DNA from: a virus
Length of the DNA: 20,683 nt
Reading direction: 5' to 3' (one strand)
IMG/VR virus record: IMGVR_UViG_3300024359_000049
Span: 1-20,683 of that record
Below the pieces are notes generated by a model. That model saw only the letters and a list, made by a program, of their open reading frames with translations. It was not told where the DNA came from and ran no database searches. Positions 8,536 through 20,419 of this stretch are shown piece by piece (within the stretch, counting starts at the first letter, position 1; each line of letters opens with the position of its first letter). A program made the position numbers and the translations under genes.

Positions 8536-8537
8536 AA

Positions 8538-8846
8538 CTATGCCCCAAAGTAATAGTTTAATAATCCAGTAAAGATTAATGTAACTAGCACACCATTTAG
8601 AAATACCAATGCCCTATCGTGCCATAACATACCAACCCAAAACCAACCTATAGTTCCAAATAATCCAAACCATAAATCTACTTGTGGTATTGTTCCTGTT
8701 GCTCTGGCCGTTGTTGCTATTAGTATTAATAGTACTGAAATCCACTTGACATACCAGGATAAATCACCCTTGGGTGTTATCTTTTTAAATACCCTGGTGC
8801 TGTCAAGTTCTTTTATCTTGTCATTGAGTTTCTTGCGTTGTTCCAT
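8538..8846 (-). CDS. Small integral membrane protein, unknown function
   Basis: 102 aa. A charged, basic N-terminus (about 1-28) precedes three hydrophobic segments: WYVKWISVLLILIATTA (31-47), LWFGLFGTIGWFWVGML (about 58-74) and ALVFLNGVLVTLIFTGLL (about 79-96). The HD between the last two segments could face the cytoplasm. The stop is followed after 2 nt by the methyltransferase TTG, and its ATG overlaps the preceding stop by one base (TAATG), so it is cotranscribed with the dsbA-like and replication genes. Resembles small membrane proteins often seen in marine viruses, but I cannot give a role. Confidence 0.72.
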   Translation of the reverse strand: MEQRKKLNDKIKELDSTRVFKKITPKGDLSWYVKWISVLLILIATTARATGTIPQVDLWFGLFGTIGWFWVGMLWHDRALVFLNGVLVTLIFTGLLNYYFGA

Positions 8847-9103
8847 TAATCAGGTCGTCCAATGCTTTCAAGTATAGTTTCAAGTGTATCAAAGTCATCT
8901 CTATGCTTGTGTAGTTCGCCCTTGTATGCTACCTTAATAGCTTTGTTAATGATTGCAGGCTTAATGCCCATTTCTTCTGCGATATGCTTTACAGTATCTC
9001 GTAGTCCTTCATTAAGTGTTTCCACTTCCTGACTTACTTGGATACCTTCTTGTATCAAAGTCTTAAGTTTTGCAATATCGTCTTGGTTAAATGTAATGCT
9101 CAT
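8846..9103 (-). CDS. dsbA: DsbA-like double-stranded DNA-binding protein (T4 type)
   Basis: 85 aa, all-helical and charged, very near T4 DsbA (89 aa) in size and arrangement. The N-terminal half is a Glu-rich helix pair, then a conserved-looking core AEEMGIKPAIINKAIKVAYK (42-61), then an acidic helix with DTLETILESI. In T4, DsbA binds double-stranded DNA and modulates late-gene transcription; note this is unrelated to the bacterial thiol oxidase of the same name. ATG 9103 follows AGGAGA and the promoter at 9133-9161, making it first in the replication operon. Identification rests on recognition of the fold pattern, not an alignment. Confidence 0.58.
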   Translation of the reverse strand: MSITFNQDDIAKLKTLIQEGIQVSQEVETLNEGLRDTVKHIAEEMGIKPAIINKAIKVAYKGELHKHRDDFDTLETILESIGRPD

Positions 9104-9132
9104 AGATATTCTCCTAGGTTTAATTAGTTACA

Positions 9133-9161
9133 ATTATAGACTATAATTACACTAAAGTCAA
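9133..9161 (-). promoter_or_regulatory. Sigma70-type promoter of the replication operon
   Basis: Minus strand TTGACT (9156-9161), 17-bp spacer, TATAAT (9133-9138). The -35 overlaps the last codons of the gene ending at 9147. It is the only promoter seen upstream of the six-gene dsbA-to-polymerase operon. It lacks both the shared AAAAGG upstream block and the spacer palindrome. Confidence 0.8.
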
Positions 9162-10019
9162 TTGTTTTCTGATAGTTTTTTGTGTTTTGTCTACGATTTG
9201 TTGCAAGTCTATTATATCATCTTCGGATCTAAAAGTCATAACAGAATCGTGTATTGCTATAGCAAATAGCTTTTTTGATTGATTTGTATGGAATAGTTTG
9301 TGATATGTTCCATATATGTAGCATATAGTTTTAAGTCTATTAGAAGTGTTTGTTACTCTCACATCCCATTCATTATAACTATTTGCTTGCTTGTATTCAG
9401 TTGTCCATACCTTCATATTTGCGTTAGGTTCAATTCCTAACTTAGAATATACGACAGCAGGATCATTTAACCAGTTATCCATTTCAAGTACGTAATCAGC
9501 ATAAGTAGACCATTTAATATCATTTGCAAGAAATTGATTATATAAATATTTCCAAGTATCAAATATATTAACAAATTTATTCATCTCATCACTGTATTCA
9601 CGTTTTAAAAATAAGTCCATATATGAATAACATTTATTTCCCATTATAGTAGTTACTACAGTTATTGGAAGATCAAACAGATTACTCCAGTTTATTATAT
9701 CTTCCGTGTTAGTTGCATGTGTGAACAATGCAATATGTTTTCCTGTTTCTAATTGTTGCCATTCGCTACATAGTGTTTGCAGTGTTTCAAGTTTTATATT
9801 CTCATTATTTCTTACATCATGATTATAAAAATTTGCAAATGTTTTTGGTATGTTCCACCAATCTTCTATTACTGTAGCATCTTTAAACTTTGACCCTGCT
9901 TCATCTAGCCATAAGTTTTTGTGTACAACATTATAAAATTGTGGACTTGAATTGATTATGTAAGTTAATGCACTGGCGCTGATGGCACTACGAGTACATA
10001 CCAGATATATTTGATTCAT
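9147..10019 (-). CDS. Unknown 290-aa protein (weak sulfotransferase-like resemblance)
   Basis: 290 aa, ATG 10019 1 nt past the previous stop. It begins with a beta strand MNQIYLVCTRSAIS and a helix reaching INSSPQFYN, recalling the N-terminus of phage sulfotransferase-like proteins (strand, loop with small and basic residues, helix), but no clear P-loop-type PAPS site is present. A second strand pair occurs near HIALFTHATN and DLPITVVTTIMG. Many aromatic residues (WNIPKTFANFYNH, TWKYLYNQF). No membrane segment. The fold guess is weak; function unknown. Last gene of the long block read from the late-like promoters. Confidence 0.65.
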   Translation of the reverse strand: MNQIYLVCTRSAISASALTYIINSSPQFYNVVHKNLWLDEAGSKFKDATVIEDWWNIPKTFANFYNHDVRNNENIKLETLQTLCSEWQQLETGKHIALFTHATNTEDIINWSNLFDLPITVVTTIMGNKCYSYMDLFLKREYSDEMNKFVNIFDTWKYLYNQFLANDIKWSTYADYVLEMDNWLNDPAVVYSKLGIEPNANMKVWTTEYKQANSYNEWDVRVTNTSNRLKTICYIYGTYHKLFHTNQSKKLFAIAIHDSVMTFRSEDDIIDLQQIVDKTQKTIRKQLTLV

Positions 10020-10020
10020 G

Positions 10021-10317
10021 TTATTTTACTTTTCGTGTGGTGGTTTTTTCTATCCATGCTAAACGCTTTTCTAAATCTTCTATGCGTTTAGTAAGTTCTG
10101 GGTGTAATTTTTTCCAAGCATTTGGATCTTGTTGGAACCATGTCCAACCATAGCGTGTAACAAAGAAGTTTAGTAATGCTGACCATTTGCTGAAAGCCCA
10201 TGCACTAATTCTAGTTCCACGTAAATATGCTACAAACAATGCACCGAATATACTTCCTACTAGAGCAGTGTATACCCATAAACGGTCTGTTGCCATTCTT
10301 TCAATTATTTCCCACAT
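10021..10317 (-). CDS. Small membrane-anchored protein with C-terminal coiled coil
   Basis: 98 aa beginning MWEIIERMATDRLW. I chose ATG 10317, 4 nt past the preceding stop; an upstream ATG at 10374 would overlap that gene by 53 nt. A single hydrophobic helix (about residues 12-30, YTALVGSIFGALFVAYL) is followed by a Trp-rich stretch (SAWAFSKW, YGWTWF) and a charged helix LTKRIEDLEKRLAWIEK ending in basic residues. Could be a tail or membrane-associated structural protein or a lysis accessory; no family recognised. The weak ribosome-binding site leaves the start less certain. Confidence 0.66.
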   Translation of the reverse strand: MWEIIERMATDRLWVYTALVGSIFGALFVAYLRGTRISAWAFSKWSALLNFFVTRYGWTWFQQDPNAWKKLHPELTKRIEDLEKRLAWIEKTTTRKVK

Positions 10318-10321
10318 ATTT

Positions 10322-11452
10322 TTAAAACTGAACGCCTGGCGCGAAGTCTCTAGGTTCAGCCAATGGTCCACCATTTTTATCTGTTACATAAATTCCAGGT
10401 ACTTGACCGCCTGCTTTTTGAATTTGGTCAAATCCTTGTGAATAAAATACTACGTTGCTAGGTATATCCATTATTAAAATACCGTCTAATTTTTCATTTT
10501 CGTTTTTAGATTTTACTGCATAATACTTATCGTGAATCATTTTAACAACATTATCTTGTAATGCTTGTGAGTTATTGTTTTGTATAGCAGTTGCTATGTT
10601 TCCTTTAAATTCAGGACCTAATCCATTAGTTATTGCACCAGCAAAGTCGTTTGCAAATTGTTGCAATTTTTCTGGTTCTATTTTTGATACAATACTGTTT
10701 TCTCCCTGTCCTGTAATAAAGTGTGTTGCTTTTCTCATACTAGCCTTCCCAACTAATGCTACTCTAGTTGATAATTCTGGATAATATTTTTTAATTACCT
10801 GAGACATTTTTCTTGGATCGAACTCTGCATAAATTTTTGAATCTGCAAATTTACCTGGGCTACCTGCACTCTTACCGTCTTTACTTGGTACTCGTGCTTT
10901 AACTTCAACTCTATAGTCTATGTCACCCTTAACAATTATATCACCTACAGCTGCTTTACCGCCACTTGTTTTAAATATCCTAGGAGAAAGAATTGCAAGA
11001 GCAACTTCTCCTGTGCCTTCACCTTGAGCTTTGTAGTCTGATAGTAGCATTCTTTTAAAAACTCTATTAACAAACATTATTGATTGTTCTTCTTCGTTTG
11101 CAGGATCAATCTTTGCTTGGTTTTGTAACAATGCTTCCAATGAAGTTTTACTACCTTTGAGTAATTCACTTATATTAATAAAACCTTTTGAGTACGAATC
11201 AGCAAAGTGAATCTTTTCTGCTACTGTACCAGGAACATTCATTATATCAGCAACAATTTTGTCAACACCATAACTTTTAGCATCTGGGTCCTGTGCAAGA
11301 GCTTGGACAAGTCTTTCATCTATTCCTGACGCTTCCATGGCATTCAATAGTTTTCTTAATAATGCTTCTTCGTCTGACGAAGTAATTTTGTTGATTAATA
11401 ATTGTTTTATTTTATCAATATCGCCTGCTTCAAATAAATGTCTTAAACGCAT
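10322..11452 (-). CDS. Probable PD-(D/E)XK nuclease-fold protein with capsid-targeting-like N-terminus
   Basis: 376 aa, ATG 11452. The central region fits a PD-(D/E)XK core: GTGEVALAIL (147-156) gives a helix Glu (E149), VGDIIV (169-174) the acidic residue D171, and YRVEVKAR (180-187) the E183-x-K185 pair. Proteins with this core are mostly Mg-dependent DNA nucleases such as restriction enzymes and resolvases. The N-terminal about 130 residues are helical and the C-terminal part is mixed alpha/beta (LDGILIMDIPSN, VPGIYV). It starts MRLRHLFE-AG, resembling T4 capsid-targeting peptides cut by gp21 after L-x-E. It lies among structural-type unknown genes, not with replication genes. Nuclease activity and packaging are inference. 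Confidence 0.68.
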   Translation of the reverse strand: MRLRHLFEAGDIDKIKQLLINKITSSDEEALLRKLLNAMEASGIDERLVQALAQDPDAKSYGVDKIVADIMNVPGTVAEKIHFADSYSKGFINISELLKGSKTSLEALLQNQAKIDPANEEEQSIMFVNRVFKRMLLSDYKAQGEGTGEVALAILSPRIFKTSGGKAAVGDIIVKGDIDYRVEVKARVPSKDGKSAGSPGKFADSKIYAEFDPRKMSQVIKKYYPELSTRVALVGKASMRKATHFITGQGENSIVSKIEPEKLQQFANDFAGAITNGLGPEFKGNIATAIQNNNSQALQDNVVKMIHDKYYAVKSKNENEKLDGILIMDIPSNVVFYSQGFDQIQKAGGQVPGIYVTDKNGGPLAEPRDFAPGVQF

Positions 11453-11464
11453 GTTATTAGTTCC

Positions 11465-11719
11465 TTATTTCTTAATTGCTTTCCAAAGTTCGTTAACTAG
11501 TGCATCTTTCTTTTTTCTTTTATCAAGTTCTACACCGTACGTTCTGCCGATTTCTTCCATCTTGCCTTTGGTTAGTTTTGCTAATTCTTTTTTGTTTTTA
11601 AATGCTGGCTTAATAACAATAGGTTTAGTAACAGTTTTCTTTACTTCCACTTTGGGTTTAGATACCCATACTTGTTCTTTAGCGCCTGCGCCAAACATCT
11701 TTTTTATCCAATTAAACAT
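11465..11719 (-). CDS. Small basic protein with SAP/HeH-like helix-extended-helix
   Basis: 84 aa, ATG 11719 with AAGGAGA ideally placed. It starts MFNWIKKMFGAGAK, an amphipathic membrane-like helix, then a Lys/Val/Pro-rich linker (KPKVEVKKTVTKPIV). The C-terminal about 36 residues, KLTKGKMEEIGRTYGVEL then KKKDALVNEL, match the helix-extended-helix pattern of SAP, HeH and Rho-N domains, which bind DNA or RNA. Strongly basic overall. Likely nucleic-acid binding; the role in the particle or cell is unknown. 10 nt from the 471-aa gene. Confidence 0.7.
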   Translation of the reverse strand: MFNWIKKMFGAGAKEQVWVSKPKVEVKKTVTKPIVIKPAFKNKKELAKLTKGKMEEIGRTYGVELDKRKKKDALVNELWKAIKK

Positions 11720-11729
11720 ATAAATCTCC

Positions 11730-13145
11730 TTATTTGTTTCTTTTTGCTTTCCACACTGCTGATTCCATCATGGAGTCTGCTTTGCTTTTTATTTGTTCGT
11801 TCATTTCTGCGGTATCCATGTAACTAAACAATGAATCCAATCTCATCATATCTTTTGGTGTTAAACGTTCACCTCTGTCTTGTATATGATCAAATACTGC
11901 AATTTCGTTCCATAGCTCATCTGGGGTCATCTTTTCTGGATGCTTGCCTGTAGTTGTCCATGGTGAGCCTGCTTCTCTAACTTTTGGTTCTTTAGATGCG
12001 TTAACAGTCATTCCGCCTGCACTCACTGATCCTTTAAAGTTGTTGCCTGATATACTGTTACTGGCTTTAAACTTTACAGGAGTTCCTGATACATTTACTG
12101 TTCCTCTTGCTGAAACTTTACCTGCTGAACCATCTCTATTAAGATGATTATTAACTGTTGCTGTTTTATCACCACCTAAACTTAAGGTGCTGCTTATACT
12201 ACCTGTTTTTTTATTTGCAATCATTGTATTATTGCCAACCTTCATATAACGTTCATCTGGACCAAACTCATTAATCTTTGTTTCGTCTAATTCATCATTG
12301 TAATAACCATTAGCTTGTCTTATTAAGTCTTCTAAGTTTTCACCTGGGTGTGCATCAATCCAATGCATAATATCAGCAATGATATCGCTTGGAGCATCAG
12401 CACCCATTTTTACTAAAATCTCGTCAATGTTTTTTACACTTTCATCTCTGCCTTTAGTATCTTCTTCTACTTTTTTAGTTTTAGGATTATCATGTGTATA
12501 TCCTTTGTCTTTCATATCTAAATGATCTTTTTCTTTTTTAGCATGTGTACCTTTACCTGTTTTAGGATCGTACATCATGTGTGGCTTAAATTCGTCTTCC
12601 ATTGGGTTGCCATCGTCCATATTCTTTCTAAAATCTGCAACAAACTTTTCAATAGTATCAGCATCTAAGAAACGAACTAAGTTATGAAATATAGGGTTGT
12701 CTGCTAATTCAATTTTACCTGCTCCCAATGAGCCGACTAAATCATAAATTGGTTTAGCGTCACTGTGTGTTCCTTCTGCATGCATCGCCGCCATATGCTT
12801 TTTGTACTTTGCAGTACCTTTTTTGTGTGGGCTTTTGCCTTCATCTAACTCTGCACGGCTTATAAAGTCCTGAATTACATCTGCATGTAAACTTGTTAAT
12901 AGTTCGTGCATTACTTTTTCATAACCATGCTTTTCAATCATATCATATACTGGTTGTGTATAATATCCACCTGCTTCGGTTATTTCTGATTCTGTTTTTG
13001 GATTTTTAAATTCGTATCTTGAGTCGCCTGCTTGGTAACGTTTCCATGCTTCAGTGTTAGCTTTTTTATCAGCAACTGTTACTTGCATTTTCTTTGGCTC
13101 TGGTGTATTATTATAACTACCTTCTTCTAAATTGCTTAATCTCAT
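11730..13145 (-). CDS. Large unknown phage protein with internal repeats, possibly packaged or structural
   Basis: 471 aa. ATG 13145 lies 6 nt after a perfect AGGAGA; the longer frame from 13196 overlaps the upstream gene by 41 nt and lacks such a site. N-terminus MRLSNLEE-GS resembles a T4 capsid-targeting peptide with an L-x-E cut site, and a second ITE-AG occurs at 55-59. Two related helical segments share an L-x-A-D-x-I-x-x-F pattern (about 76-95 and 152-172), with a looser third near 240-280. Residues about 100-235 are Lys/Asp/His-rich and probably disordered. Residues 302-385 are Ser/Gly/Thr/Asn-rich beta repeats (SGSVSAGG-type), like tail or surface proteins. The C-terminal about 60 residues are helical. 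No known family. Confidence 0.78.
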   Translation of the reverse strand: MRLSNLEEGSYNNTPEPKKMQVTVADKKANTEAWKRYQAGDSRYEFKNPKTESEITEAGGYYTQPVYDMIEKHGYEKVMHELLTSLHADVIQDFISRAELDEGKSPHKKGTAKYKKHMAAMHAEGTHSDAKPIYDLVGSLGAGKIELADNPIFHNLVRFLDADTIEKFVADFRKNMDDGNPMEDEFKPHMMYDPKTGKGTHAKKEKDHLDMKDKGYTHDNPKTKKVEEDTKGRDESVKNIDEILVKMGADAPSDIIADIMHWIDAHPGENLEDLIRQANGYYNDELDETKINEFGPDERYMKVGNNTMIANKKTGSISSTLSLGGDKTATVNNHLNRDGSAGKVSARGTVNVSGTPVKFKASNSISGNNFKGSVSAGGMTVNASKEPKVREAGSPWTTTGKHPEKMTPDELWNEIAVFDHIQDRGERLTPKDMMRLDSLFSYMDTAEMNEQIKSKADSMMESAVWKAKRNK

Positions 13146-13151
13146 AATAGT

Positions 13152-13157
13152 TCTCCT
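13152..13157 (-). promoter_or_regulatory. Ribosome-binding site that fixes the start of the 471-aa gene
   Basis: AGGAGA on the minus strand, 6 nt before ATG 13145, overlapping the stop codon of the upstream 156-aa gene. It decides against the longer frame beginning at 13196. Confidence 0.75.
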
Positions 13158-13626
13158 ACGTTCCGTATAACTCTGTTTTCTCGTCCCACTTTTCAATTAA
13201 TTCATTAAGTGTTTCTAACATTTTATACAGTTCGCCTGTACCTGCTCTATCACCAGTTCCCATTAATTCTTTACTAAACTTGTGTCTTTGATTAATTGCT
13301 ACTTCTAACTGACCTGCAGTTTTCATTAACATTGATCTAGTATGATTAAGTTGACCTTTGTCTTGTTCTCTGTAATATTCGGTGCTTCCATGTTCTGCTA
13401 CCTCGTTAGTTGTTTCACTTTCTAACATATGCCAATATTTTTTAACGATACCATTACGTGCTTCAATTTCATCTGGATTAATATGCCCACGAGCATAATG
13501 ATCTTTTTGAATTTGTAACATTAATTTTTGTTCATCTTCAGTACCAAAATGTTTTGCCATTTCAATACCATTTTCTGTATGATAATTATTATCTTCGTTC
13601 TTTTCAAATTGGGCTTTAGTAAACAT
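13156..13626 (-). CDS. Unknown helical 156-aa protein
   Basis: 156 aa, ATG 13626 2 nt past the previous stop, with AAGG about 12 nt upstream. Almost entirely charged helix: DEQKLMLQIQKDHYARG (36-52), QLNHTRSMLMKTAGQLEVAI (92-111) and ELYKMLETLNELIEKWDEK near the end, giving a coiled-coil or helical-bundle look. No Cys, no membrane segment. No family recognised. Position between two large unknown proteins of the late-like block suggests virion assembly or an internal protein; that is context only. Confidence 0.72.
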   Translation of the reverse strand: MFTKAQFEKNEDNNYHTENGIEMAKHFGTEDEQKLMLQIQKDHYARGHINPDEIEARNGIVKKYWHMLESETTNEVAEHGSTEYYREQDKGQLNHTRSMLMKTAGQLEVAINQRHKFSKELMGTGDRAGTGELYKMLETLNELIEKWDEKTELYGT

Positions 13627-13628
13627 AA

Positions 13629-14642
13629 TTATTTCGCCTTCTTCTTAGCGTTTGCTAATGCATTCTTAAACATGTCTTTTGCTATGACTTGTAAATCATC
13701 ATTGCGTTTTTCATCAAATTCCATTCCTTCGACTACTTCTTCTGTTTTCTTACCATATGTTTCACAAGGATCTTTTCCGCATCCACAATTTTTCTTTTCT
13801 TCATAAACGCTTTCACCTAGTTCAAAGTCTGGACCAAAGAAATCTTCTAGCCTGCTCTGAACAATATATCTAACATCAAGTACATCACCGCCATCTTCGG
13901 CTTCGCCTAGGCTATCTAATAACTCATCATCAAATACAAAACCTTGTACCATATCAGTTGTTGCTTCACTTGGTGGACGAGGTTGAGACATAAACTCTTT
14001 ATATCTTGCTACTGCGTCTTCATATTCGCCTTCTGGTTGACCATCATATTTCATTAGTCCGCCAATCATAGTACCTTCATTAACTGATTCGTAGGCACCT
14101 GCCATTAATTCTTCATCTGGCATCTCTTGTGGCATCTCTTGTGGCATCTCTTGTGTATGTGCTTCTGGTTCGATTTCAGCTTTCATGGCATTGTATTCAG
14201 TGTAACGACGAACTGAATCCATGTCTTTACTAGCTTGTGCAATCTTACTTGAAACCCATGGTGCTAAATCATCTTGGTCTTTTACAATACCGTGTAATTT
14301 AATTGCATCTCTGGCTAGGAAGTATAATTGGCTACGAGCCATAAATCCATCTTCGTCTGCGCCGTCTAGTACGCCTTCTGTAATGTTTGATTCTGTTGTT
14401 GTGCTTTCGTTGGGATAGTCTATGTGATCTAATGCATCTTGACTACCTTCTCTTAAGGCGTTATGTGCCTCTGATAATGCAAGTACTATACTTGATAAAG
14501 ATGAAGGGTCACCTTCAATTTCCATTATAGCTTGTTCTAATTTGCCTCCTGGCTGAAATACTTTTTCAAATTTGCTAAGTTCATCCATAACACGATTAAA
14601 TGTGTTATCAATTTTCTTATATGTTGGGTGGTTATTGTCCAT
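13629..14642 (-). CDS. Acidic unknown protein with EMPQ repeat and a three-Cys motif
   Basis: 337 aa. ATG 14642 follows AGAGGT and the stop at 14647; an alternative GTG 14666 would overlap the previous gene. Acidic throughout. The N-terminal about 75 residues are helical (TFNRVMDELSKFEKVF). Residues 163-175 hold a short tandem EMPQ repeat encoded by the 12-bp DNA repeat at 14119-14154. CGCGKDPC (286-293) is a compact cysteine motif that could bind metal. The C-terminal end is basic (NALANAKKKAK). An ITE-G at 87-90 resembles prohead-protease sites. Function unknown; probably a structural or internal protein given its neighbours. Confidence 0.75.
   Translation of the reverse strand: MDNNHPTYKKIDNTFNRVMDELSKFEKVFQPGGKLEQAIMEIEGDPSSLSSIVLALSEAHNALREGSQDALDHIDYPNESTTTESNITEGVLDGADEDGFMARSQLYFLARDAIKLHGIVKDQDDLAPWVSSKIAQASKDMDSVRRYTEYNAMKAEIEPEAHTQEMPQEMPQEMPDEELMAGAYESVNEGTMIGGLMKYDGQPEGEYEDAVARYKEFMSQPRPPSEATTDMVQGFVFDDELLDSLGEAEDGGDVLDVRYIVQSRLEDFFGPDFELGESVYEEKKNCGCGKDPCETYGKKTEEVVEGMEFDEKRNDDLQVIAKDMFKNALANAKKKAK
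14119..14154 (-). repeat. Three perfect tandem copies of a 12-bp unit within a gene
   Basis: The plus-strand unit ggcatctcttgt repeats exactly three times. The frame is kept, adding EMPQ per unit in the 337-aa protein. Perfect identity suggests recent slippage expansion, so copy number may differ between related phages. Confidence 0.9.
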
Positions 14643-14646
14643 GTCG

Positions 14647-14943
14647 TTACCTCTTATTAATGCCACGACTGTTCTTACCGCCGCGTTTTCTAATTTGTTC
14701 TAATTCTTCATAGGTCTCATTGATGGCTTTTATAAATGTTTGTACTAAACCCTTGTTTAGATTGTATTCAACATTTTCCCAATCTCCGTTTTCACCCATT
14801 TGTGCAATCTCTTTAAACATAGATACTACTTTAGCCTCTACTTGTTTAAGATTAAGTCTACCATATCCTTGTATTAATACTTCAGGATTCATAGGCTCGT
14901 CTCTGTTTTTTGCATAAATGCTTTCTAATTGGTCAACTCTCAT
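14647..14943 (-). CDS. Unknown helical 98-aa protein
   Basis: 98 aa, ATG 14943 overlapping the previous stop as ATGA. N-terminus MRVDQLESIYAKNRDEP, helical centre (LKQVEAKVVSMFKEIAQM), then TFIKAINETYEELEQIRKR and a very basic tail GGKNSRGINKR. The start partly matches the short N-terminal pattern seen in several neighbours (M-R-V-D-Q-L), but no L-x-E cut site is clear. No family recognised. Tight coupling with the 68-aa gene suggests joint expression in the late-like unit. Confidence 0.72.
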   Translation of the reverse strand: MRVDQLESIYAKNRDEPMNPEVLIQGYGRLNLKQVEAKVVSMFKEIAQMGENGDWENVEYNLNKGLVQTFIKAINETYEELEQIRKRGGKNSRGINKR

Positions 14944-15146
14944 CGTCTGATAACCTTTACTTGTTCGGTATAACCTACACTTTGCTTTTTACGTTTACCA
15001 TCACCTAAGTATCCTTTTGGATCAACTGCCTTACGAGCGTCTTTTTTCTTAGTTCCGGGCGTCATAGGAAAAGAAACACTAGCAATATTACCTGCCATTG
15101 TACTTCCTGCGTCAGCATCTTCGGTTATTATGTCCGTAATCTTCAT
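14940..15146 (-). CDS. Small basic protein with capsid-targeting-like N-terminus
   Basis: 68 aa. Begins MKITDIITE-DADAG, close in form to the T4 capsid-targeting peptide MKTYQEFIAE (basic second residue, amphipathic, I/L-x-E end). The rest is Gly/Ser/Pro-rich, then strongly basic (GTKKKDARKAV, GKRKKQS) and probably disordered, as in T4 internal proteins. No ribosome-binding site precedes ATG 15146. Instead a late-like GATAAATACTT (15149-15159) sits so close that T4 spacing would start the RNA at the ATG itself. Function unknown; an internal or scaffold-associated protein is my best guess. Confidence 0.7.
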   Translation of the reverse strand: MKITDIITEDADAGSTMAGNIASVSFPMTPGTKKKDARKAVDPKGYLGDGKRKKQSVGYTEQVKVIRR

Positions 15147-15148
15147 AC

Positions 15149-15159
15149 AAGTATTTATC
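15149..15159 (-). promoter_or_regulatory. T4-late-like promoter element
   Basis: Minus strand GATAAATACTT, identical over 11 nt to the element at 17706-17716 and one base from T4 TATAAATA. With T4 spacing (-13 to -6) the RNA would begin at the A of ATG 15146. A small inverted repeat CTAAT-CGA-ATTAG (15159-15171) abuts it. It lies in the 31-nt gap after the dioxygenase gene. Confidence 0.55.
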
Positions 15160-15177
15160 TAATTCGATTAGAAACCT

Positions 15178-15939
15178 TTAGTAATTGAGTGTAGCACTCA
15201 TTAGTTTCATAACATTTTCCCATGTTTTCGGTATATTCATTATTACATGCATGCTATCTGGCTTCCAACTGTGTGTTCTATGTGTTTTACGTGTGTCAAT
15301 ATAGTATACTCCACCTGCTTTAATAGGCCAAATACGCCCATCCATTTGCCATTCATATGCATCATGTGTTGTATTATTTGATACAAATGCCGCTACTCTA
15401 AAACACTCTCTGTTTAATAGTGGTTGGTCTTTGTGTGGTGGAAACCATCCGCCTGCACCACTGTTAACAATTATAGTTCTACCAATAGGACTCCAATAGT
15501 CTAATAATGGTTGTAAACTTTTTAAATCGTGATATAACTGTGTAGGAGTATTAAAATCTAATTCGGATAATTCCCTACCTGCACGTCTTATGGCTTCAGG
15601 CATACTTAAACTATCCCAAGGATCATCGCCCGGTAGTCCTACTAAACATAGGCCTTCTCTGTTGTTTACTACACCTTCTCTACGTAAATATGGAACCCAC
15701 TTATCATCATAGGCTTTGATTTCTTTTTTGAACCAGCCTAAGTCAATTTCCCATTTCAATGGTTCTACTGTACTAAGTGCTTGAAGTTGTAATTCACATT
15801 TAATATCTTCTGCACTTGGTTCTACTAATGCTGGATCAGTTTTCCAATTCTCATACCAACTGGCTTGAAAACTTCTGTTAGCTGCTGGCACTATTGATTC
15901 TAATTTATTGCCGTCTTTGTCTACTTTTGAATAGTCCAT
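15178..15939 (-). CDS. 2-oxoglutarate/Fe(II) dioxygenase, aspartyl/asparaginyl hydroxylase-like
   Basis: 253 aa, ATG 15939 1 nt past the previous stop. The double-stranded beta-helix core is in the C-terminal half: GGWFPPHKDQ (163-172) gives the iron ligands H169-x-D171, and the distal histidine is H220 or H223 in KTHRTHSW (218-225), followed by HVIMNI. Strands such as CFRVAAFVSN (179-188) and GGVYYIDT (209-216) fit the fold. These enzymes hydroxylate amino-acid side chains or other substrates using oxygen and 2-oxoglutarate and occur often in marine T4-like phages, where their targets are mostly unknown. The N-terminal about 90 residues are unassigned. Fold is well supported; substrate is not. 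Confidence 0.77.
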   Translation of the reverse strand: MDYSKVDKDGNKLESIVPAANRSFQASWYENWKTDPALVEPSAEDIKCELQLQALSTVEPLKWEIDLGWFKKEIKAYDDKWVPYLRREGVVNNREGLCLVGLPGDDPWDSLSMPEAIRRAGRELSELDFNTPTQLYHDLKSLQPLLDYWSPIGRTIIVNSGAGGWFPPHKDQPLLNRECFRVAAFVSNNTTHDAYEWQMDGRIWPIKAGGVYYIDTRKTHRTHSWKPDSMHVIMNIPKTWENVMKLMSATLNY

Positions 15940-15940
15940 A

Positions 15941-16168
15941 TTATTCCTCTATATTTTTTAGTATCTGCTTACTTACACTTCTATCGTGTTTTTTGCTACT
16001 AGTTTTTGCTTTCTTTTTTTTAGCTACTGCAATGCGATGTATTTGCTTTTCATCATAATCTTTACCTGCTTTTGCATTAGCCCAGACTTTAGCATCGTCT
16101 TTCGCCACACTGTTCATAGGACCGTGCGTGTCCTTTAATTCTTCTTTATTAAATTTTTTATTTGACAT
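15941..16168 (-). CDS. Small very basic protein
   Basis: 75 aa, ATG 16168. About one third Lys/Arg/His, with clusters KKKKAKTSSKKHDR near residues 50-63. No Cys, no membrane segment; probably unstructured in isolation and able to bind nucleic acid. The ALAKAG-like stretch WANAKAGKDYDEKQIHRIA in the middle may form a helix. 1 nt from the dioxygenase gene and 7 nt after the GNAT gene. No family recognised. Its composition resembles DNA-condensing internal proteins of T4-like heads, but it lacks the targeting-like start of its neighbours. Confidence 0.68.
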   Translation of the reverse strand: MSNKKFNKEELKDTHGPMNSVAKDDAKVWANAKAGKDYDEKQIHRIAVAKKKKAKTSSKKHDRSVSKQILKNIEE

Positions 16169-16175
16169 GTTTCTT

Positions 16176-16556
16176 CTAACTAATAAAATTTATTCTTAAA
16201 TTTGCATTATTGGCTACTTTTAAACTAATAGTATTTTTTGGATTTATAACACACCAAAGTTGCTTTCCTACAAATTCTTGCTTACATAAATTAACGGCTT
16301 CCGTTGCTATTCCTAGATTTCTATACTTTTCGCTAACAAAGTATGCAGTTTCGAAGTCTTCTTTGACTTCTACTGCGCCTGCTAGTATTCCATTATTAAT
16401 CCATATACCCCATGTATTATAACTTGAAATGAACGATTCTGCAACCTCTTTTGTAAATGGCCACTCTAAATTACATTGTTCTGCAGTTTCTTTTGTTAGT
16501 ATACTTCTTAATTGGAAAAGGTGTTTTGACTGAAAACGTCTCAGTTCAACTTTCAT
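16176..16556 (-). CDS. GNAT-family N-acetyltransferase (short)
   Basis: 126 aa. GNAT motif A is visible as AYFVSEKYRNLGIATEAV (71-88), with the pyrophosphate-binding R/Q-x-x-G-x-G/A as RNLGIA (79-84). Motif B follows as INPKNTISLKVANNANLR (104-121), with the usual N-x-x-S. It starts MKVELRRFQSKHL, a typical GNAT first strand and helix. It ends soon after motif B, shorter than most family members, so the last strand may be reduced. GNAT enzymes transfer an acetyl group from acetyl-CoA to amines on proteins, peptides or small molecules; substrate unknown here. 1 nt past the 63-aa gene. Confidence 0.8.
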   Translation of the reverse strand: MKVELRRFQSKHLFQLRSILTKETAEQCNLEWPFTKEVAESFISSYNTWGIWINNGILAGAVEVKEDFETAYFVSEKYRNLGIATEAVNLCKQEFVGKQLWCVINPKNTISLKVANNANLRINFIS

Positions 16557-16557
16557 T

Positions 16558-16749
16558 TTACTTATCCATTAGTTTAACTATTCTAGGTTTGAATAGCTTT
16601 TGATCGCCTTTAGTTGTTTTTAACACAGGTTGATTGTTGTCATCTACTGCAAAACCAGTTACAGTTGCTTTACGGTTTTTAAATTTACCTACTAATATCT
16701 CATCTCCAATTTCAATATTAGGTAATTTTAATATATCTTTTATTTTCAT
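16558..16749 (-). CDS. Small beta-barrel (SH3/KOW-like) protein
   Basis: 63 aa, ATG 16749 overlapping the previous stop as ATGA. Residues 13-60 show alternating strands EIGDEILVGKFKNRKATV, TGFAVDDN, PVLKTTKG, LFKPRIVKL, the look of an SH3-like or KOW barrel, which often binds nucleic acid or protein. The start MKIKDILKLPNIE recalls the short amphipathic N-terminal pattern of other genes in this block. Such small proteins are common in marine T4-like phages to my recollection; function unassigned. Confidence 0.7.
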   Translation of the reverse strand: MKIKDILKLPNIEIGDEILVGKFKNRKATVTGFAVDDNNQPVLKTTKGDQKLFKPRIVKLMDK

Positions 16750-17051
16750 TTATTTAATTTATTTCTTACATCTATAATTTTGTATGCTGGTGCAAGTTCT
16801 CCATAAGCATTTTCTTCACATATTTCATATTTTATTTTACTTTTATTAATATGATCTAGTACACAATCATGAATATGATAATTATATCTTCCATGTCGCC
16901 ATTTAACTTCTGTTTCACCTGCCTTGTGTGCTTGTTTATAATCAGTAAATACTCCTGCTACATATCTATGTGGCTCGTTTATATCTCGATAGTCAATAGG
17001 AGTGTTACTACATGCATCTGACTTTTCCATTTGTACAATATAAACTATCAT
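16746..17051 (-). CDS. Unknown 101-aa protein
   Basis: 101 aa, ATG 17051 3 nt past the previous stop. Alpha/beta composition: MIVYIVQ strand, YVAGVFTDYKQAHKAGE strand-helix, then YNYHIHDCVLDHIN and a final YKIIDVRNKLNK. Three Cys (near residues 14, 63 and 79) are not arranged as a metal motif. The layout of strand, DYKQAHKA helix and strand suggests a small cytoplasmic domain that could bind a ligand or partner. No family recognised. Confidence 0.68.
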   Translation of the reverse strand: MIVYIVQMEKSDACSNTPIDYRDINEPHRYVAGVFTDYKQAHKAGETEVKWRHGRYNYHIHDCVLDHINKSKIKYEICEENAYGELAPAYKIIDVRNKLNK

Positions 17052-17054
17052 AAC

Positions 17055-17687
17055 TTATTTTTGTTTTCCCTCTTTAAGGTTGTTCTTTTTAATTAAATTA
17101 AATAATCTCATTTCCATGTCAAGAAACTTTCTTGAATGTTCTTTATCTAATTCGTCTTGCTTCTTATCTTGCTCGTCTCTACGTTGATCACCTTTGTATT
17201 GGTTCTGTAAGGTTTGATTTGTTTGTGCCATTAGTGCTGACATTATGTTATCAGCGTGTGGGTATTTTGCTCTTAGTTGTTTAACTGCCATTGCAGTTTG
17301 AGGATCAAATCCTGAAATGTCATTTGGTTTATCATCTTTAGGTATATCTTCATTGTCTTTTTTCTTATCTTCTGTTAAACCTAAATTATATAAATTATGT
17401 GCATTGCTGTTCTTTCGTGCTTTTTTATGAAGCTCTGCTGGCTTGCCTTTTCCAAAAAACTTGGCTGCTTCTTTTTCAGTTTGTCCTGGTTTAACATCTA
17501 CTGTAGTATTGACACCTGGAACTATAACACCATCTTCTTTAACAGGAGTTGGTTCATCTCTGCGTTGATTAACTTTGGATGGATCTATTCCTAGCTCTGC
17601 AGCTTTACGGTATTTTGCCATTGTTTTAAGTGCATATGCTTTCTTCCTAGCACGCCTATCATTTGATGTTATTTCATTTATTTGCAT
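17055..17687 (-). CDS. Lysine-rich hydrophilic protein, first gene after a late-like promoter
   Basis: 210 aa, ATG 17687 with AAAGG about 9 nt upstream. Start MQINEITSNDRRARKKAY is an amphipathic peptide like those of nearby proteins, with I-N-E at residues 3-5. Residues about 60-105 hold NTTVDVKPGQTEKEAAKFFG then ARKNSNAHNLYNLGL, followed by a Lys/Asp linker (DKKKDNEDIPKDDKPND) and a C-terminal charged helix (DEQDKKQDELDKEHSRKF) likely to form a coiled coil. Probably scaffold, internal or virion-associated; no family assigned. The promoter at 17706-17716 would give a 16-nt leader. Confidence 0.72.
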   Translation of the reverse strand: MQINEITSNDRRARKKAYALKTMAKYRKAAELGIDPSKVNQRRDEPTPVKEDGVIVPGVNTTVDVKPGQTEKEAAKFFGKGKPAELHKKARKNSNAHNLYNLGLTEDKKKDNEDIPKDDKPNDISGFDPQTAMAVKQLRAKYPHADNIMSALMAQTNQTLQNQYKGDQRRDEQDKKQDELDKEHSRKFLDMEMRLFNLIKKNNLKEGKQK

Positions 17688-17703
17688 AATATATACCTTT
17701 GTT

Positions 17704-18933
17704 TTAAGTATTTATCGATTTATGTAATTCAATAAACGTTTTCTTCCAGTCTGTGTTTCGTATTTCATCTAGTTTTTCTAAGAAATCTACACACAAATAA
17801 CAATTATCCTCATAATCTAACGTATTGTTCAAGTAGCTTATTAAATGAGATAGTTTATCCTTATGTATTGAGTTAGTATACATGTCTATGATATCTAGTT
17901 TTGCTTGCTTTGGTAAATGTTTTGCATCCATGTGTACTGGATGTGAAAGTATTCTTATATTAATATAATACTCGTTAAAATGGTCTAATAACTTTAAAAA
18001 TGTAAATGCATTAAGCATTTGCCAAGTAATGCTTATTTCTATCTGTGTATTTGGCACAAGATCTTTAATGCGTTGGATATTTTCATTTAGTTTATACCAT
18101 TTGCTAGGAAAACGTATATAGTCATTTTGTTCTCCAAAATCATCTATACTTACTCTAAGCATTAGTTTTTTAAAATGCTTCCACTGATCAATTGCCCGTT
18201 GATGCACATTAGTAATATTTGTATCGTACTCTAGCACTACATTTTTACTTATACCACTGTCTATTAGCTTTTGCAAAAATTTGTAATGAGGTTCTACTAG
18301 CATAGGTTCGCCACCTACTAAGTAAACATGTTGTAGTTGTTCCTTGTGTGTATCTAACTGTTCCCAAAAGTGTTCACTTTCCCACCAATCATAATCCGAT
18401 GCACGATCTTTCCTATTTTGTTTGGATACGTCCGACATGTCGATTTTTGTACCGCTGTCGTAAAAATGATCAGTGGAGTGAACTTTTGCCCAGTCTTTAT
18501 ACCACATACTGCTACTTTGAGGTCCGCACATTACACATTTTAAATTGCATAAGTTACCAAACCTTAAATCCCAATATATAGGCATCTGTGTTGTACTGCC
18601 ATCAGCACTTGTTAATTGTGATGCTTTGTTGTAGTCGAATGTATCCTTGTACATTTTGTTAGTAAACATACGTCTACTTTGACCACCATTATCTTCTTTT
18701 ACCCAACATGTATTACACTCTGCTGGCTTTTCGCCTGCTAAGAATTGTTTACGAATATTGCGTGTAAATTCACTGTTGTGTATTTCTTCTATTGTATGAG
18801 TTTTAAAACTATGTCCAGTAAGTCCGCCATTTCCACTATCGTGGTTACTCATTAAGCAACAAACTCTACTGGTTCCATTTGTTTTAGTTGCAGCGTGTAT
18901 CCAAGGAATTGAACAAAAACTATTCTTCTGCAT
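17704..18933 (-). CDS. Radical SAM protein with N-terminal Cys-rich (twitch-like) region, copy 2
   Basis: 409 aa. Cluster motif CNLKCVMC gives C129-x3-C133-x2-C136, followed by GPQSSSMWYKDW, much like copy 1 at 6222. The SAM motif GGEP occurs in YLVGGEPMLVEPH. N-terminal FCSIPW (C7), VCC (C25-C26) and CNTCW (C73, C76) match the spacing of the other two copies and probably bind an auxiliary Fe-S cluster. Near the C-terminus, NCYLCVDF could supply further ligands. It overlaps the upstream radical SAM gene by 14 nt, so the two are coupled and may work as a pair. Substrate unknown; possible targets are a peptide, tRNA or DNA base. Its last codons contain a late-like promoter for the next gene. 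Confidence 0.86.
   Translation of the reverse strand: MQKNSFCSIPWIHAATKTNGTSRVCCLMSNHDSGNGGLTGHSFKTHTIEEIHNSEFTRNIRKQFLAGEKPAECNTCWVKEDNGGQSRRMFTNKMYKDTFDYNKASQLTSADGSTTQMPIYWDLRFGNLCNLKCVMCGPQSSSMWYKDWAKVHSTDHFYDSGTKIDMSDVSKQNRKDRASDYDWWESEHFWEQLDTHKEQLQHVYLVGGEPMLVEPHYKFLQKLIDSGISKNVVLEYDTNITNVHQRAIDQWKHFKKLMLRVSIDDFGEQNDYIRFPSKWYKLNENIQRIKDLVPNTQIEISITWQMLNAFTFLKLLDHFNEYYINIRILSHPVHMDAKHLPKQAKLDIIDMYTNSIHKDKLSHLISYLNNTLDYEDNCYLCVDFLEKLDEIRNTDWKKTFIELHKSINT
17706..17716 (-). promoter_or_regulatory. T4-late-like promoter element
   Basis: Minus strand GATAAATACTT, spanning the stop codon of the radical SAM gene. Using T4 late spacing the RNA would start at 17703 and carry a 16-nt leader with AAAGG before ATG 17687. 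It has the same 11 bases as 15149-15159. Confidence 0.6.
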
Positions 18934-20098
18934 CGCTGTTGATCCATTCTGCTAGCTCAGGATCAAAACTATCTAATGTAACTACGCCATGTGTATCGTA
19001 ATAGTTTACAAAATGTCTTACTGTGTGTTTGCGTTTCATGTCATTGTTAAAAGGCTTACGCATTTCATTTATAACATGATCAACTCCCTCTAGCCTATCT
19101 TTATGTTGTTCAAAAAATGCCAGACTATCTGCTTTTAGTCTATCTGGAATATTTTCCATTAGTACTTCTGTCTTGTTAATAACTGGACGAATTTGTACTT
19201 TTGCTCTTGGATATTTTTCCCATAAGTGTGTAATAAGTTTAGGTATGTGTCTAACACTTAAACTGTTAGCAGTAATGTCCCATACTTTTAATTTAAAGTG
19301 ATTATAATACTGATCCATTACTTGTAGTTTTTCTTCCCATACTGTATCTTGTCTAGTCCACTCATCAGCAGCGCCCCATCCATCTACACTAAATCTCAAG
19401 AATACATTTTCTACTGTTTTTAATTGTTTTAAGTCTTTTTCTCTTAATAGTCTAGTACCATTTGTATTAATAACAAACCGAGCACCTGGAGCCAGACTAC
19501 CTAATCGTTGTACTGTTGTTGGAAAGTTTTTAAGATAAAAAGGTTCACCGCCTGCTAGATAAACATGCTTTAGGTTTTTGTCTACACTGCTAATAATGTT
19601 ATCCCATGCTCGCGGATCATCACTCCAGTCGTAATTGCTTTTGTGATATTTTTCTGCTTCTTTTTCTAGTCTGCCTTCTTTCCAATCAAAATGTTCAGCC
19701 ATTGATTTGTGTTGATGTAATATTTTATTACTATTACCAGCAAAACACATAACACATGACAGGTTACATACATTACCTAATCTTAAATCAAGTGCATGTA
19801 TTTTTTCATCTTGAAATGGAACTCCTTTATTAATCATACCTAATGCTTTTTGTCTAAAACTACGTATGCCGTCTCTTTCAGGATCGTAGCATTTAAAACA
19901 ACCATTAGGTTCACCACCTGATGCAATTTCTGTTCTCACAGAATGCATTTCTGGACTATTCCATATTTCACTTAACTTATAGTCTTTAATATGATATTGT
20001 GAAAGTTTGTTCTTTAGGTTTTTACAACACAATGCTACGTACCCATCGTTATCGACGAATGTAAAATTATTTGTGTATATGCAATATTTGTCTGTCAT
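18920..20098 (-). CDS. Radical SAM protein with N-terminal Cys-rich (twitch-like) region, copy 3
   Basis: 392 aa, ATG 20098 behind GAGAG and the promoter at 20118-20147. Cluster motif CNLSCVMC gives C111-x3-C115-x2-C118; the SAM motif is in YLAGGEPFYLKN. N-terminal C6, C24-C25 and C67-x2-C70 repeat the spacing of the other two copies, but C111 comes 40 residues after C70 rather than about 50, and the S-x-W-Y-K-D seen in copies 1 and 2 is replaced by SNKILHQH. So it is the most divergent copy. The C-terminal part has no obvious SPASM cysteines. Overlap with copy 2 suggests a two-enzyme unit expressed from a host-type promoter. Confidence 0.86.
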   Translation of the reverse strand: MTDKYCIYTNNFTFVDNDGYVALCCKNLKNKLSQYHIKDYKLSEIWNSPEMHSVRTEIASGGEPNGCFKCYDPERDGIRSFRQKALGMINKGVPFQDEKIHALDLRLGNVCNLSCVMCFAGNSNKILHQHKSMAEHFDWKEGRLEKEAEKYHKSNYDWSDDPRAWDNIISSVDKNLKHVYLAGGEPFYLKNFPTTVQRLGSLAPGARFVINTNGTRLLREKDLKQLKTVENVFLRFSVDGWGAADEWTRQDTVWEEKLQVMDQYYNHFKLKVWDITANSLSVRHIPKLITHLWEKYPRAKVQIRPVINKTEVLMENIPDRLKADSLAFFEQHKDRLEGVDHVINEMRKPFNNDMKRKHTVRHFVNYYDTHGVVTLDSFDPELAEWINSDAEE

Positions 20099-20152: not shown

Positions 20153-20419
20153 TTAATCAACAACTGCATCAAAATTATCTAAGTAATATTGATGAAGAAC
20201 TTTATGATCAATGCCTATGTATGAAGTACCAATGTTATATGTATACCAACCTAATGCATGTCTAAATACGCCACCATTTTCTTTTTGTTTGCGTAATAAC
20301 ATTGCATGTAGCTTCTCTGCAACACGCTGATACTTGTTTTTTTGTACTACTGGTGTTACTTTTCTTTTAAGTAATTCCCAAGGACTAGCTTCGTTTGTTG
20401 TTACTTCATTAACTAACAT
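20153..20419 (-). CDS. Unknown basic 88-aa protein
   Basis: 88 aa, ATG 20419 inside the end of the upstream gene (11-nt overlap). Starts MLVNEVTTNEASPWELLKRK, an amphipathic short peptide then a helix. A basic helix follows (QRVAEKLHAMLLRKQKE), then an aromatic beta-like part (ALGWYTYNIGTSYIG). No Cys, no membrane segment, no family recognised. The start loosely fits the N-terminal pattern shared in the late-like block, but with V/T before E it lacks a clean L-x-E. Confidence 0.68.
   Translation of the reverse strand: MLVNEVTTNEASPWELLKRKVTPVVQKNKYQRVAEKLHAMLLRKQKENGGVFRHALGWYTYNIGTSYIGIDHKVLHQYYLDNFDAVVD

Follow-up and report, generated by a model that had tools for sequence, protein, structure and literature searches.

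The 20,683 bases analysed here (the window) are the whole of the IMG/VR virus record IMGVR_UViG_3300024359_000049. The family-B DNA polymerase encoded in it has its best named-phage matches in T4-like jumbo phages at 43-48% identity, Atu_ph07, Phosso and RaK2-type phages being among the 30 listed, and a near-identity DNA search of named phages with positions 8000-18000 returned no match. A block of minus-strand genes in the window encodes unrelated proteins that begin with a similar short leader, followed in the clearest cases by a candidate cut site of the T4 prohead protease type, and such sites recur inside several of the proteins (Table 1; a slash within a sequence marks the candidate cut). 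Judged from sequence, this marine giant virus of bacteria appears to tag unrelated proteins with one head-directing leader, some of them jointed by protease sites.

The first-pass annotation of this block had proposed a set of packaged, possibly injected proteins, and the six N-termini on which it relied were all found at their places. Ends in L/I-x-E were confirmed for MRLRHLFE/A, MRLSNLEE/G and MKITDIITE/D, whereas MKIKDIL and MQINEIT have no cut motif and MRVDQLE/S is off-motif. Similarly, the products described as basic include the 84-, 68-, 75-, 63-, 210- and 88-aa proteins (isoelectric point, pI, 9.2-10.2) but not the 471-aa (pI 6.0) and 337-aa (pI 4.3) proteins.

A leader shared by unrelated proteins

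Leader statistics were taken from the window and 12 related records (proteins of at least 60 aa), some of them near-identical to each other. Genes were called with a simple in-house script, which gave some wrong starts, and the motif letters were fixed after a first look at the sequences. M[KR][ILV]x[DEN][ILVF] opens 75 of 2141 proteins in these 13 records, against 11 of 10953 windows beginning at an internal Met. In a non-redundant set the strict motif was found in 62 of 1892 proteins, compared with 0 of 218 (p=0.002) in three control phages, namely Staphylococcus phage K and SPO1 (50 kb each) and Pelagibacter phage HTVC010P. [DEN][ILVF] occupies positions 5-6 in 59 of 150 non-redundant M[KR][ILV] starts (39%) while elsewhere between positions 4 and 30 the count is 2 to 23 of the 150 (1-15%, about 5%). 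The window alone, with 2 of 29 starts against 1 of 150 internal windows and the 68-aa gene mis-started, is too small for proof. Behind the motif, [LIVF]xE with Glu at positions 8-11 was found in 26 of 62 N-termini, against 70 of 569 others having a hydrophobic position 6 (p=6e-8). Leader genes are clustered at permutation p<0.05 in eight of nine records; the per-record tests are not independent, since several records are near-identical.

M-K-I/L starts are common in AT-rich genes, and start-codon bias together with chance could be proposed as the source of the likeness. The six short matches are weak by themselves, and in a simple positional count [LI]xE[AGS] at positions 6-12 exceeds its mid-protein rate by a factor of only 1.4 to 1.9; when the letters were widened to [LIVF]xE[AGSD], no rise was seen at these positions in G005 and G013, the two largest related records. 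Chance and codon bias were ruled out as the source of the leader by the position profile, the internal-Met windows and the three control phages, and the leader is also retained while the protein bodies diverge, which makes this explanation barely credible.

The claim that unrelated proteins have the leader in common was borne out, and on alignment across relatives each of the three strong leaders is retained in near orthologues. In a nine-sequence alignment of the 376-aa family, M1, R2, L3, L6, F7 and E8 are invariant, and MRLxxLFE is retained though four of the nine sequences are 21-23% and one 26% identical to the window protein. Among orthologues, MRL(R/T)(H/R/K)LFE/A is kept as local identity drops to 38% and then to 24-30%, one homologue in a later set having LLE in place of LFE. 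The body of this protein carries a signature that may be PD-(D/E)XK-like, E149, D171, E183 and K185 being invariant in the same alignment. The structural model of the window protein was poor (predicted local distance difference test, pLDDT, 47.7); that of a 23%-identical homologue, L020 (pLDDT 79.7), has helix and strands around the conserved acidic and Lys residues and a leader with pLDDT below 50. No Pfam match over the cut-off and no PDB match by sequence profile was found for the 376-aa protein, and at E<0.001 a fold search with L020 matched nothing in the PDB and gave three viral matches only, all uncharacterised.

MRLSNLEE is identical in the ten loci (eight contigs) that align with the 471-aa protein from residue 1, and the other loci listed for this protein match piecewise only and have no MRLSNLEE. 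In the 68-aa family, the 14 nearest loci that align from residue 1 have MKI(T/Y)DIITE/D, and G013 has MKINELLGE/N. The gene-calling script put this start later, at an internal Met, and relatives that have no such Met also begin MKIWEITS or MKINELLGE. In the 88-aa family the leader varies and Glu-Ala is retained: relatives read MLINEVTE/ASPW and MNYNGADALENFGLNE/ASPW, with E/A(S/T)PW kept behind different leaders. The 98-aa protein reads MKINEINE/S in one relative. The homologue of the 156-aa protein begins MKADQLNE/F in G003 and is an internal module in G005, and MQINEIT of the 210-aa protein matches an internal stretch of a longer relative.

Further leaders were observed in relatives. T4-style leaders, MKTFKQYLME/N (G005 197861-198406) and MKQFKEFLTE/S (G013 216793-217359), are present in the jumbo relatives, so that both leader dialects occur in one genome; the T4 capsid-targeting peptides are quoted as MKTYQEFIAE and MELITELFDE. 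A P-loop kinase-like protein (GGPGSGK) of three phages has the leader-like starts MKIHDILE, MRVEEII and MIPFILKE/G.

Candidate cut sites at the joints of shuffled modules

The first-pass annotation had overlooked a stronger signal, which is a near-identical motif at the joints between shuffled internal modules, as seen in sequence comparisons. When the 471-aa protein was searched, many loci matched in pieces only, and an all-against-all comparison revealed modules exchanged between proteins and placed in different orders, among them GKSPHKKGxxKYKKH, AGGYYTQPVYDMIEKHG, DGVIVPGVNTTVDV and GTMIGGLMKYDG. The residues ahead of the shuffled modules fit L/I/V-x-E, close to the T4 gp21 motif. Over 33 dissimilar upstream contexts of five modules, retained only if they differed at 5 or more of 9 upstream residues, P1 is Glu in all 33 and P3 is hydrophobic in 29 (V 14, I 7, L 7, M 1), and at each of P2 and P4-P9 a hydrophobic residue is present in 1 to 9 of the contexts. 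The P3 preference has a binomial p of 6e-13 on a 27% background, the contexts not being fully independent. Each module might begin with the joint Glu, but the preference at P3 has no such explanation.

Fourteen module patterns were tried, and the five with their start at a joint were used for this count, the start of M4 being moved to AGG and the M3 pattern tightened. For the nine unused patterns, [LIVFM]xE lies close before the module in 7/12 (M5), 4/6 (M6), 5/8 (M7), 3/4 (M9), 3/8 (M10), 3/4 (M11), 1/10 (M12), 0/3 (M13) and 2/19 (M14, a loose pattern with unrelated hits). In one locus, MKIHSIIKE/DGVIV..., a leader directly precedes a module that is internal elsewhere. A DNA recombination word at the joints was ruled out: the 99 sites of 16 hand-picked proteins contain 90 distinct 12-mers, and the joint signal therefore lies in the protein.

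The 63-, 88-, 98- and 210-aa proteins are separate genes in the window. A 751-aa protein of G005 contains relatives of the 63- and 88-aa proteins as well as the NTTVDV module of the 210-aa protein, with the seams IGE/A, VEE/A, LKE/N, VTE/A and LNE/N, the 63-aa module lying between the first two. Also in G005, a cytidylyltransferase-like protein is fused to a relative of the 98-aa protein, which follows IVE/S (IVE/SLYTLD). Enzyme domains are also combined: a 1216-aa protein of G013 (52415-56065) has HD_4, PolyA_pol and NT5C with candidate cut sites between the domains, and Pfam places PolyA_pol and NT5C in one protein in G012 and G004. These multidomain enzymes were seen in relatives, and no peptidase was among the Pfam matches of the ten proteins scanned. 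In addition, a 1085-aa protein of G012 (69710-72967) has a long Pro/Glu/Asp-rich repeat stretch and a domain like the N-terminal one of the 751-aa protein of G005, which has matches in Sinorhizobium and Flavobacterium phages, at its own N-terminus.

The cut-site signal was also measured more widely. In 174 mosaic proteins, 162 of 1657 alignment edges lie near [LIV]xE/[AGSDNF] against 97.5 expected (z 6.9), and the control motifs [LIV]xK, [LIV]xD and [LIV]Ex gave z of -1.9, -0.3 and 0.2. When 14 residues were tried at P1, with P3 fixed as [LI], Glu had the highest z (2.6) and the others reached at most 0.8; the preferred P1' residues were A, D, S, E, N and F. Sixteen mosaic proteins, hand-picked like those of the codon count, hold 93 sites against 45.1 expected (z 7.4). 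A genome-wide ranking by site excess, made without such picking, covered the proteins of at least 100 aa (302 in G005, 334 in G013, 216 in G012 and 138 in G003) and scored those with three or more sites. The putative scaffold gp22, assigned by its position between gp21 and gp23 (PHROG 10922, unnamed), ranks first in G005 (z 4.2) and G013 (z 6.0), and a mosaic protein ranks first in G012, second in G003 and third in G005. Finally, candidate sites in six proteins avoid Pfam domains, with 0 in 1575 residues inside and 31 in 2584 outside (Fisher p 3.7e-7), and four control motifs (9/25, 7/13, 4/11 and 5/12 inside/outside) are not significantly depleted. The six were taken from ten scanned, three without a match and one with a sub-threshold OCRE match only being dropped; two OAR hits were omitted, and three tRNA_NucTran2_2 and one KOW sub-threshold stretches were counted as inside. 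The leader, the motif, the joints, the module exchange and the avoidance of Pfam domains can be read directly in the sequences, and they make a strong case that the sites at leaders and joints are of gp21 type.

Table 1. Features of the window (unless another record is named) discussed in the text
Feature	Position	Strand	Remarks
376-aa protein	10322..11452	-	leader MRLRHLFE/A; body GExALAxLS...GD...VE(V/L)K
Leader MRLRHLFE	11429..11452	-	candidate cut between 11428 and 11429
84-aa basic protein	11465..11719	-	inside block between two leader genes; no leader motif
471-aa mosaic protein	11730..13145	-	leader MRLSNLEE/G and five internal [LIV]xE joints
Joint VRE/AGSPWTTTGKHP	11973..11981	-	3 of 4 contexts, the 3 related upstream
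Joint INE/FGPDERY	12267..12275	-	7 of 7 contexts, mostly related upstream
Joint VEE/DTKGRDES	12462..12470	-	in 471-aa protein
Joint LDE/GKSPHKKG	12840..12848	-	[LIVFM]xE in 13 of 17 distinct contexts; E in all 14 printed
Joint ITE/AGGYYTQPVYD	12975..12983	-	14 distinct contexts: E in 14, hydrophobic P3 in 11
Leader MRLSNLEE	13122..13145	-	candidate cut between 13121 and 13122
156-aa protein	13156..13626	-	no leader here
337-aa mosaic protein	13629..14642	-	seven motif matches; no leader motif; GTG start at 14666 would give 345 aa
Joint VVE/GMEFDEKRNDD	13728..13736	-	337-aa protein; GMEFDEKR module after ITE in L027, L029 and G011
Joint VNE/GTMIGGLMKYDG (VNE/GTMIGG)	14076..14084	-	337-aa protein
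Joint ITE/GVLDG	14376..14384	-	337-aa protein; VAE/GVLD in G003 and G011
98-aa protein	14647..14943	-	N-terminus MRVDQLE/SIYAKN, off-motif (Gln at P3)
68-aa basic protein	14940..15146	-	leader MKITDIITE/DADAG; candidate cut between 15119 and 15120
Late-promoter-like GATAAATACTT	15149..15159	-	upstream of 68-aa gene
63-aa protein	16558..16749	-	MKIKDILKLP, leader-like start (targeting half), no Glu
210-aa basic protein	17055..17687	-	MQINEIT; joints VKE/DGVIVPGVNTTVDV and LTE/DKKK
Joint VKE/DGVIVPGVNTT	17535..17543	-	210-aa protein; 8 of 8 contexts, two being one upstream cut short
Late-promoter-like GATAAATACTT	17706..17716	-	upstream of 210-aa gene
88-aa protein	20153..20419	-	leader MLVNEVTTNE/ASPW; P3 Thr, off-motif in window
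P-loop kinase-like genes	G012 116664-117353; G013 270170-270859; L179 8563-9225		three phages

Late-like promoters had been proposed for the block. Two exact occurrences of GATAAATACTT were found in the window, both before block genes. In a scan with one mismatch allowed, chance alone predicts 1.33 matches, and two are reached in 36 of 100 shuffles, so that only position and recurrence in relatives favour a promoter role. Of the [TGA]ATAAATACT sites in G005, 15 of 16 lie within 120 bases before a gene start, including those of the portal-like gene and the 68-aa homologue, and the same holds for 7 of 9 sites in G013, 8 of 9 in G012, 4 of 4 in G003, 6 of 7 in G001 and 5 of 7 in G004, these counts being without a shuffle control. 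At 15144-15159 only two bases separate the late-promoter-like element from the ATG of the 68-aa gene; a transcript of this gene would then have little or no untranslated leader.

Against PHROG and Pfam, no protein of the block had more than marginal hits. Residues 43-80 of the 84-aa protein weakly match (E 3e-4) PHROG 8608, 'prohead protease inhibitor'. Three radical-SAM-like proteins without leader motif (6222-7475, 17704-18933 and 18920-20098, minus strand) flank the block on both sides; they have a CxxxCxxC signature, which we take to be a radical-SAM mark.

Proposed packaging and processing, and other readings

We consider, with a probability of roughly 0.74, that the block encodes capsid-targeted, gp21-processed head cargo, partly made as shuffled polyproteins. 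A leader of the form M-(K/R)-(I/L)-x-(D/E/N)-(I/L/V), resembling the T4 capsid-targeting sequence (CTS), would bring unrelated proteins into the prohead core, and a gp21-type prohead protease would cleave at (L/I/V)-x-Glu, on the C-terminal side of the Glu; in many proteins this cut would fall at the end of the leader. Mosaic proteins would be cut at their module joints as well, single genes thereby acting as polyproteins, and modules would be swapped between genes and phages at these joints, those encoded separately in the window being fused in relatives with a site at the seams. Ejection with the DNA would follow for the released products, among them the CCA-type nucleotidyltransferase, HD-domain hydrolase, 5'-deoxyribonucleotidase and cytidylyltransferase-like protein of relatives. 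We lean slightly towards a broader picture for marine T4-like and jumbo phages, in which exchangeable enzyme and peptide modules, linked in whatever order by prohead-protease sites and set behind a capsid-targeting leader, would be packaged as polyproteins, cut in the prohead and injected together as pluggable host-takeover functions.

The proposed link to gp21 can be traced in relatives. A gp21-type protease (PF03420) and gp23 (PF07068) are encoded close together in G005 (306,714 bases) and G013 (342,607 bases), the two largest of 26 related records, and neither was found in the other 24, all of which are shorter. The gp23 proteins of G005 and G013 read HLSE/AATSG and ALNE/SATAG, the L-x-E form expected from the L/I-X-E motif given for T4 in PMC9026906, and are presumably cut there. 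The relatives' own substrate class is thus available for comparison.

Packaging of the block proteins is likely by analogy, both with T4 CTS fusions, as described in sections of PMC9026906 and PMC3012670, and with the T4-GC190 family. S-SSM5, S-SM1, Methylophilales phage Melnitz and HTVC008M have a similar block between the replicative helicase and primase genes, followed by ribonucleotide reductase, and leaders of a T4-like dialect (MKKFSAFLTE/A, MQGFKTFLSE/A, MKKFSEIIE/A) were found in these cultured relatives. The T4-GC190 cytidylyltransferase begins MK(K/S)F(S/N)AFLxE/A in 80 of 80 loci, with T, N, I, S or V at x; these loci are the best 80 of 438 relatives and mostly near ones. The virion data in PMC3037559 (Sullivan et al. 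2010) list this protein as found by mass spectrometry in purified S-SM1 virions. Its homologues in K64-1, PBECO4 and PA5oct are without a T4-like leader, and in PA5oct eight other genes in EST35_0302 to 0310 carry an electrospray ionisation tandem mass spectrometry (ESI-MS/MS) note, the homologue having none. The earlier interpretation as packaged proteins is in this way partly supported, through a leader-bearing family that is analogous only. From the account in PMC9026906, targeting and processing residues are separable in T4, which fits leaders having the targeting half only. Cleavage at V-x-E, a role as cargo rather than core, injection and the functions of the products are steps that we infer.

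Several observations weigh against processed cargo. No gp21-type protease is present in the 20.7-kb window record, and T4-GC190 had not been detected in S-PM2 virions, according to PMC3037559. At the leaders, 36 of 62 motif-bearing N-termini have no [LIVF]xE with Glu at 8-11, and P1' is mixed (N 4, E 4, R 3, V 2, Y 2, D 2, G 2 and seven singletons). By permutation, the grouping of leader genes is weak in G013 (p 0.03) and falls short of significance in G005 (p 0.17). Within the nucleotidyltransferase family, the G005 member starts MNHLVV, without a leader, and that of HTVC008M starts MKTLKELLRKK, without L-x-E. At the joints, Val is the commonest P3 (14 of 33), whereas the T4 motif has L/I, and at alignment edges the z of P3 residues before x-E is 4.7 for V, 3.1 for T, 3.0 for E, 2.6 for L, 2.3 for M and 1.2 for I; with Thr and Glu scoring above Leu and Ile, the P3 rule at edges looks looser than that of T4. 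Of the control motifs, the reversed one shows some enrichment (z 2.9 in the hand-picked set, 2.1 at edges). A slight excess, 890 sites against 766.6 (z 4.7, 1.16-fold), was also found in the remaining 631 proteins of G005 and G013; it is shared by other motifs, such as [LIV]xE[LIVKR] with z 4.1. In the genome-wide ranking, the top scorer of G003 is not mosaic, and the 16 top scorers printed for G013 include no mosaic protein.

The modules could instead be parts of the prohead core or scaffold, chopped and expelled like T4 gp22, gp67 and gp68; T4 core fragments mostly leave the head, according to the description in PMC9026906. The cut-site excess does resemble that of the putative gp22, the 337-aa protein is acidic, and a small gene between portal and gp21 (PHROG 13986, unknown) starts MDLNDLFE in G005 (236318-236533) and MKYSDITE in G013 (191352-191570). 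However, in the six proteins tested the enzyme domains lie between the sites and contain none, and T4-GC190 was recovered from purified virions, so that we consider a core role unlikely. The proteins might also stay whole, the Glu-rich joints being flexible linkers or recombination seams and the leaders binding a tail, replication or other partner. This would suit a block that adjoins replication genes (helicase, primase, ribonucleotide reductase) in cultured relatives and the many leaders without a cut motif, and the polyvalent proteins of other phages, as presented in PMC5512222, are likewise multidomain. A hydrophobic P3 with P1 Glu, the other positions being unconstrained, is not the signature of a linker or a DNA seam, though; the 12-mers are nearly all distinct, and the leader layout resembles a T4 targeting peptide. 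We find uncut proteins improbable.

Comparison with known systems

The proposed head cargo resembles T4 IPI-III and Alt, for which passages of PMC9026906 describe a CTS of about 10 N-terminal residues common to unrelated proteins and cut by gp21 at L/I-x-E; the relatives here also carry gp21 and gp23. The leader dialect differs from that of T4, more proteins carry it, and sites are found at internal joints as well. T4 gp22, gp67 and gp68 have several L/I-x-E sites per protein (same source), whereas the sites here separate mobile modules and Pfam domains. In phiKZ and SPN3US (gp175/gp245), giant phages like these, several head proteins are cut after Glu and propeptides have several sites, as set out in parts of PMC10052503 and PMC9026906. 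The phiKZ motif is S/A-x-E, its propeptides are mostly long, and module exchange at the sites is not mentioned in those parts. The cyanophage T4-GC190 cytidylyltransferase shares the comparable block setting and a leader with LxE/A. That leader is T4-style, cyanophage leaders being MKxFxxFLxE-like and different from the window dialect, and the sections of PMC3037559 on the virion proteins mention neither a targeting peptide nor processing.

The polyvalent proteins described in the relevant sections of Iyer et al. 2017 (PMC5512222) are likewise shuffled and multidomain, carry nucleotide-signal and nucleic-acid enzymes, and are proposed to enter the host with the DNA. Their processing is attributed to zincin-like metallopeptidase domains, an embedded peptidase being a common theme there and not universal, in contrast to the head-protease-like seams found here. 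In the open-access literature searched, no title or abstract dealt with prohead-protease-joined cargo polyproteins, which is not absence from print.

If the proposal is correct, packaged proteins could be predicted from sequence in marine phages with poorly annotated heads, and many hypothetical genes beside helicase and ribonucleotide reductase would receive a first function class. It would also suggest that the CCA-type nucleotidyltransferase, deoxyribonucleotidase, HD hydrolase and cytidylyltransferase, enzymes otherwise thought active in metabolism or late infection, do their work during the first minutes after infection begins. The closest known ideas are the T4 CTS proteins and the polyvalent proteins, and their combination with prohead-protease seams was not met in the open-access literature searched. 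T4 provides the precedent for targeting peptides with gp21 processing, and other phages provide that for injected multidomain proteins; the two would be connected if shuffled cargo polyproteins have prohead-protease sites as their seams.

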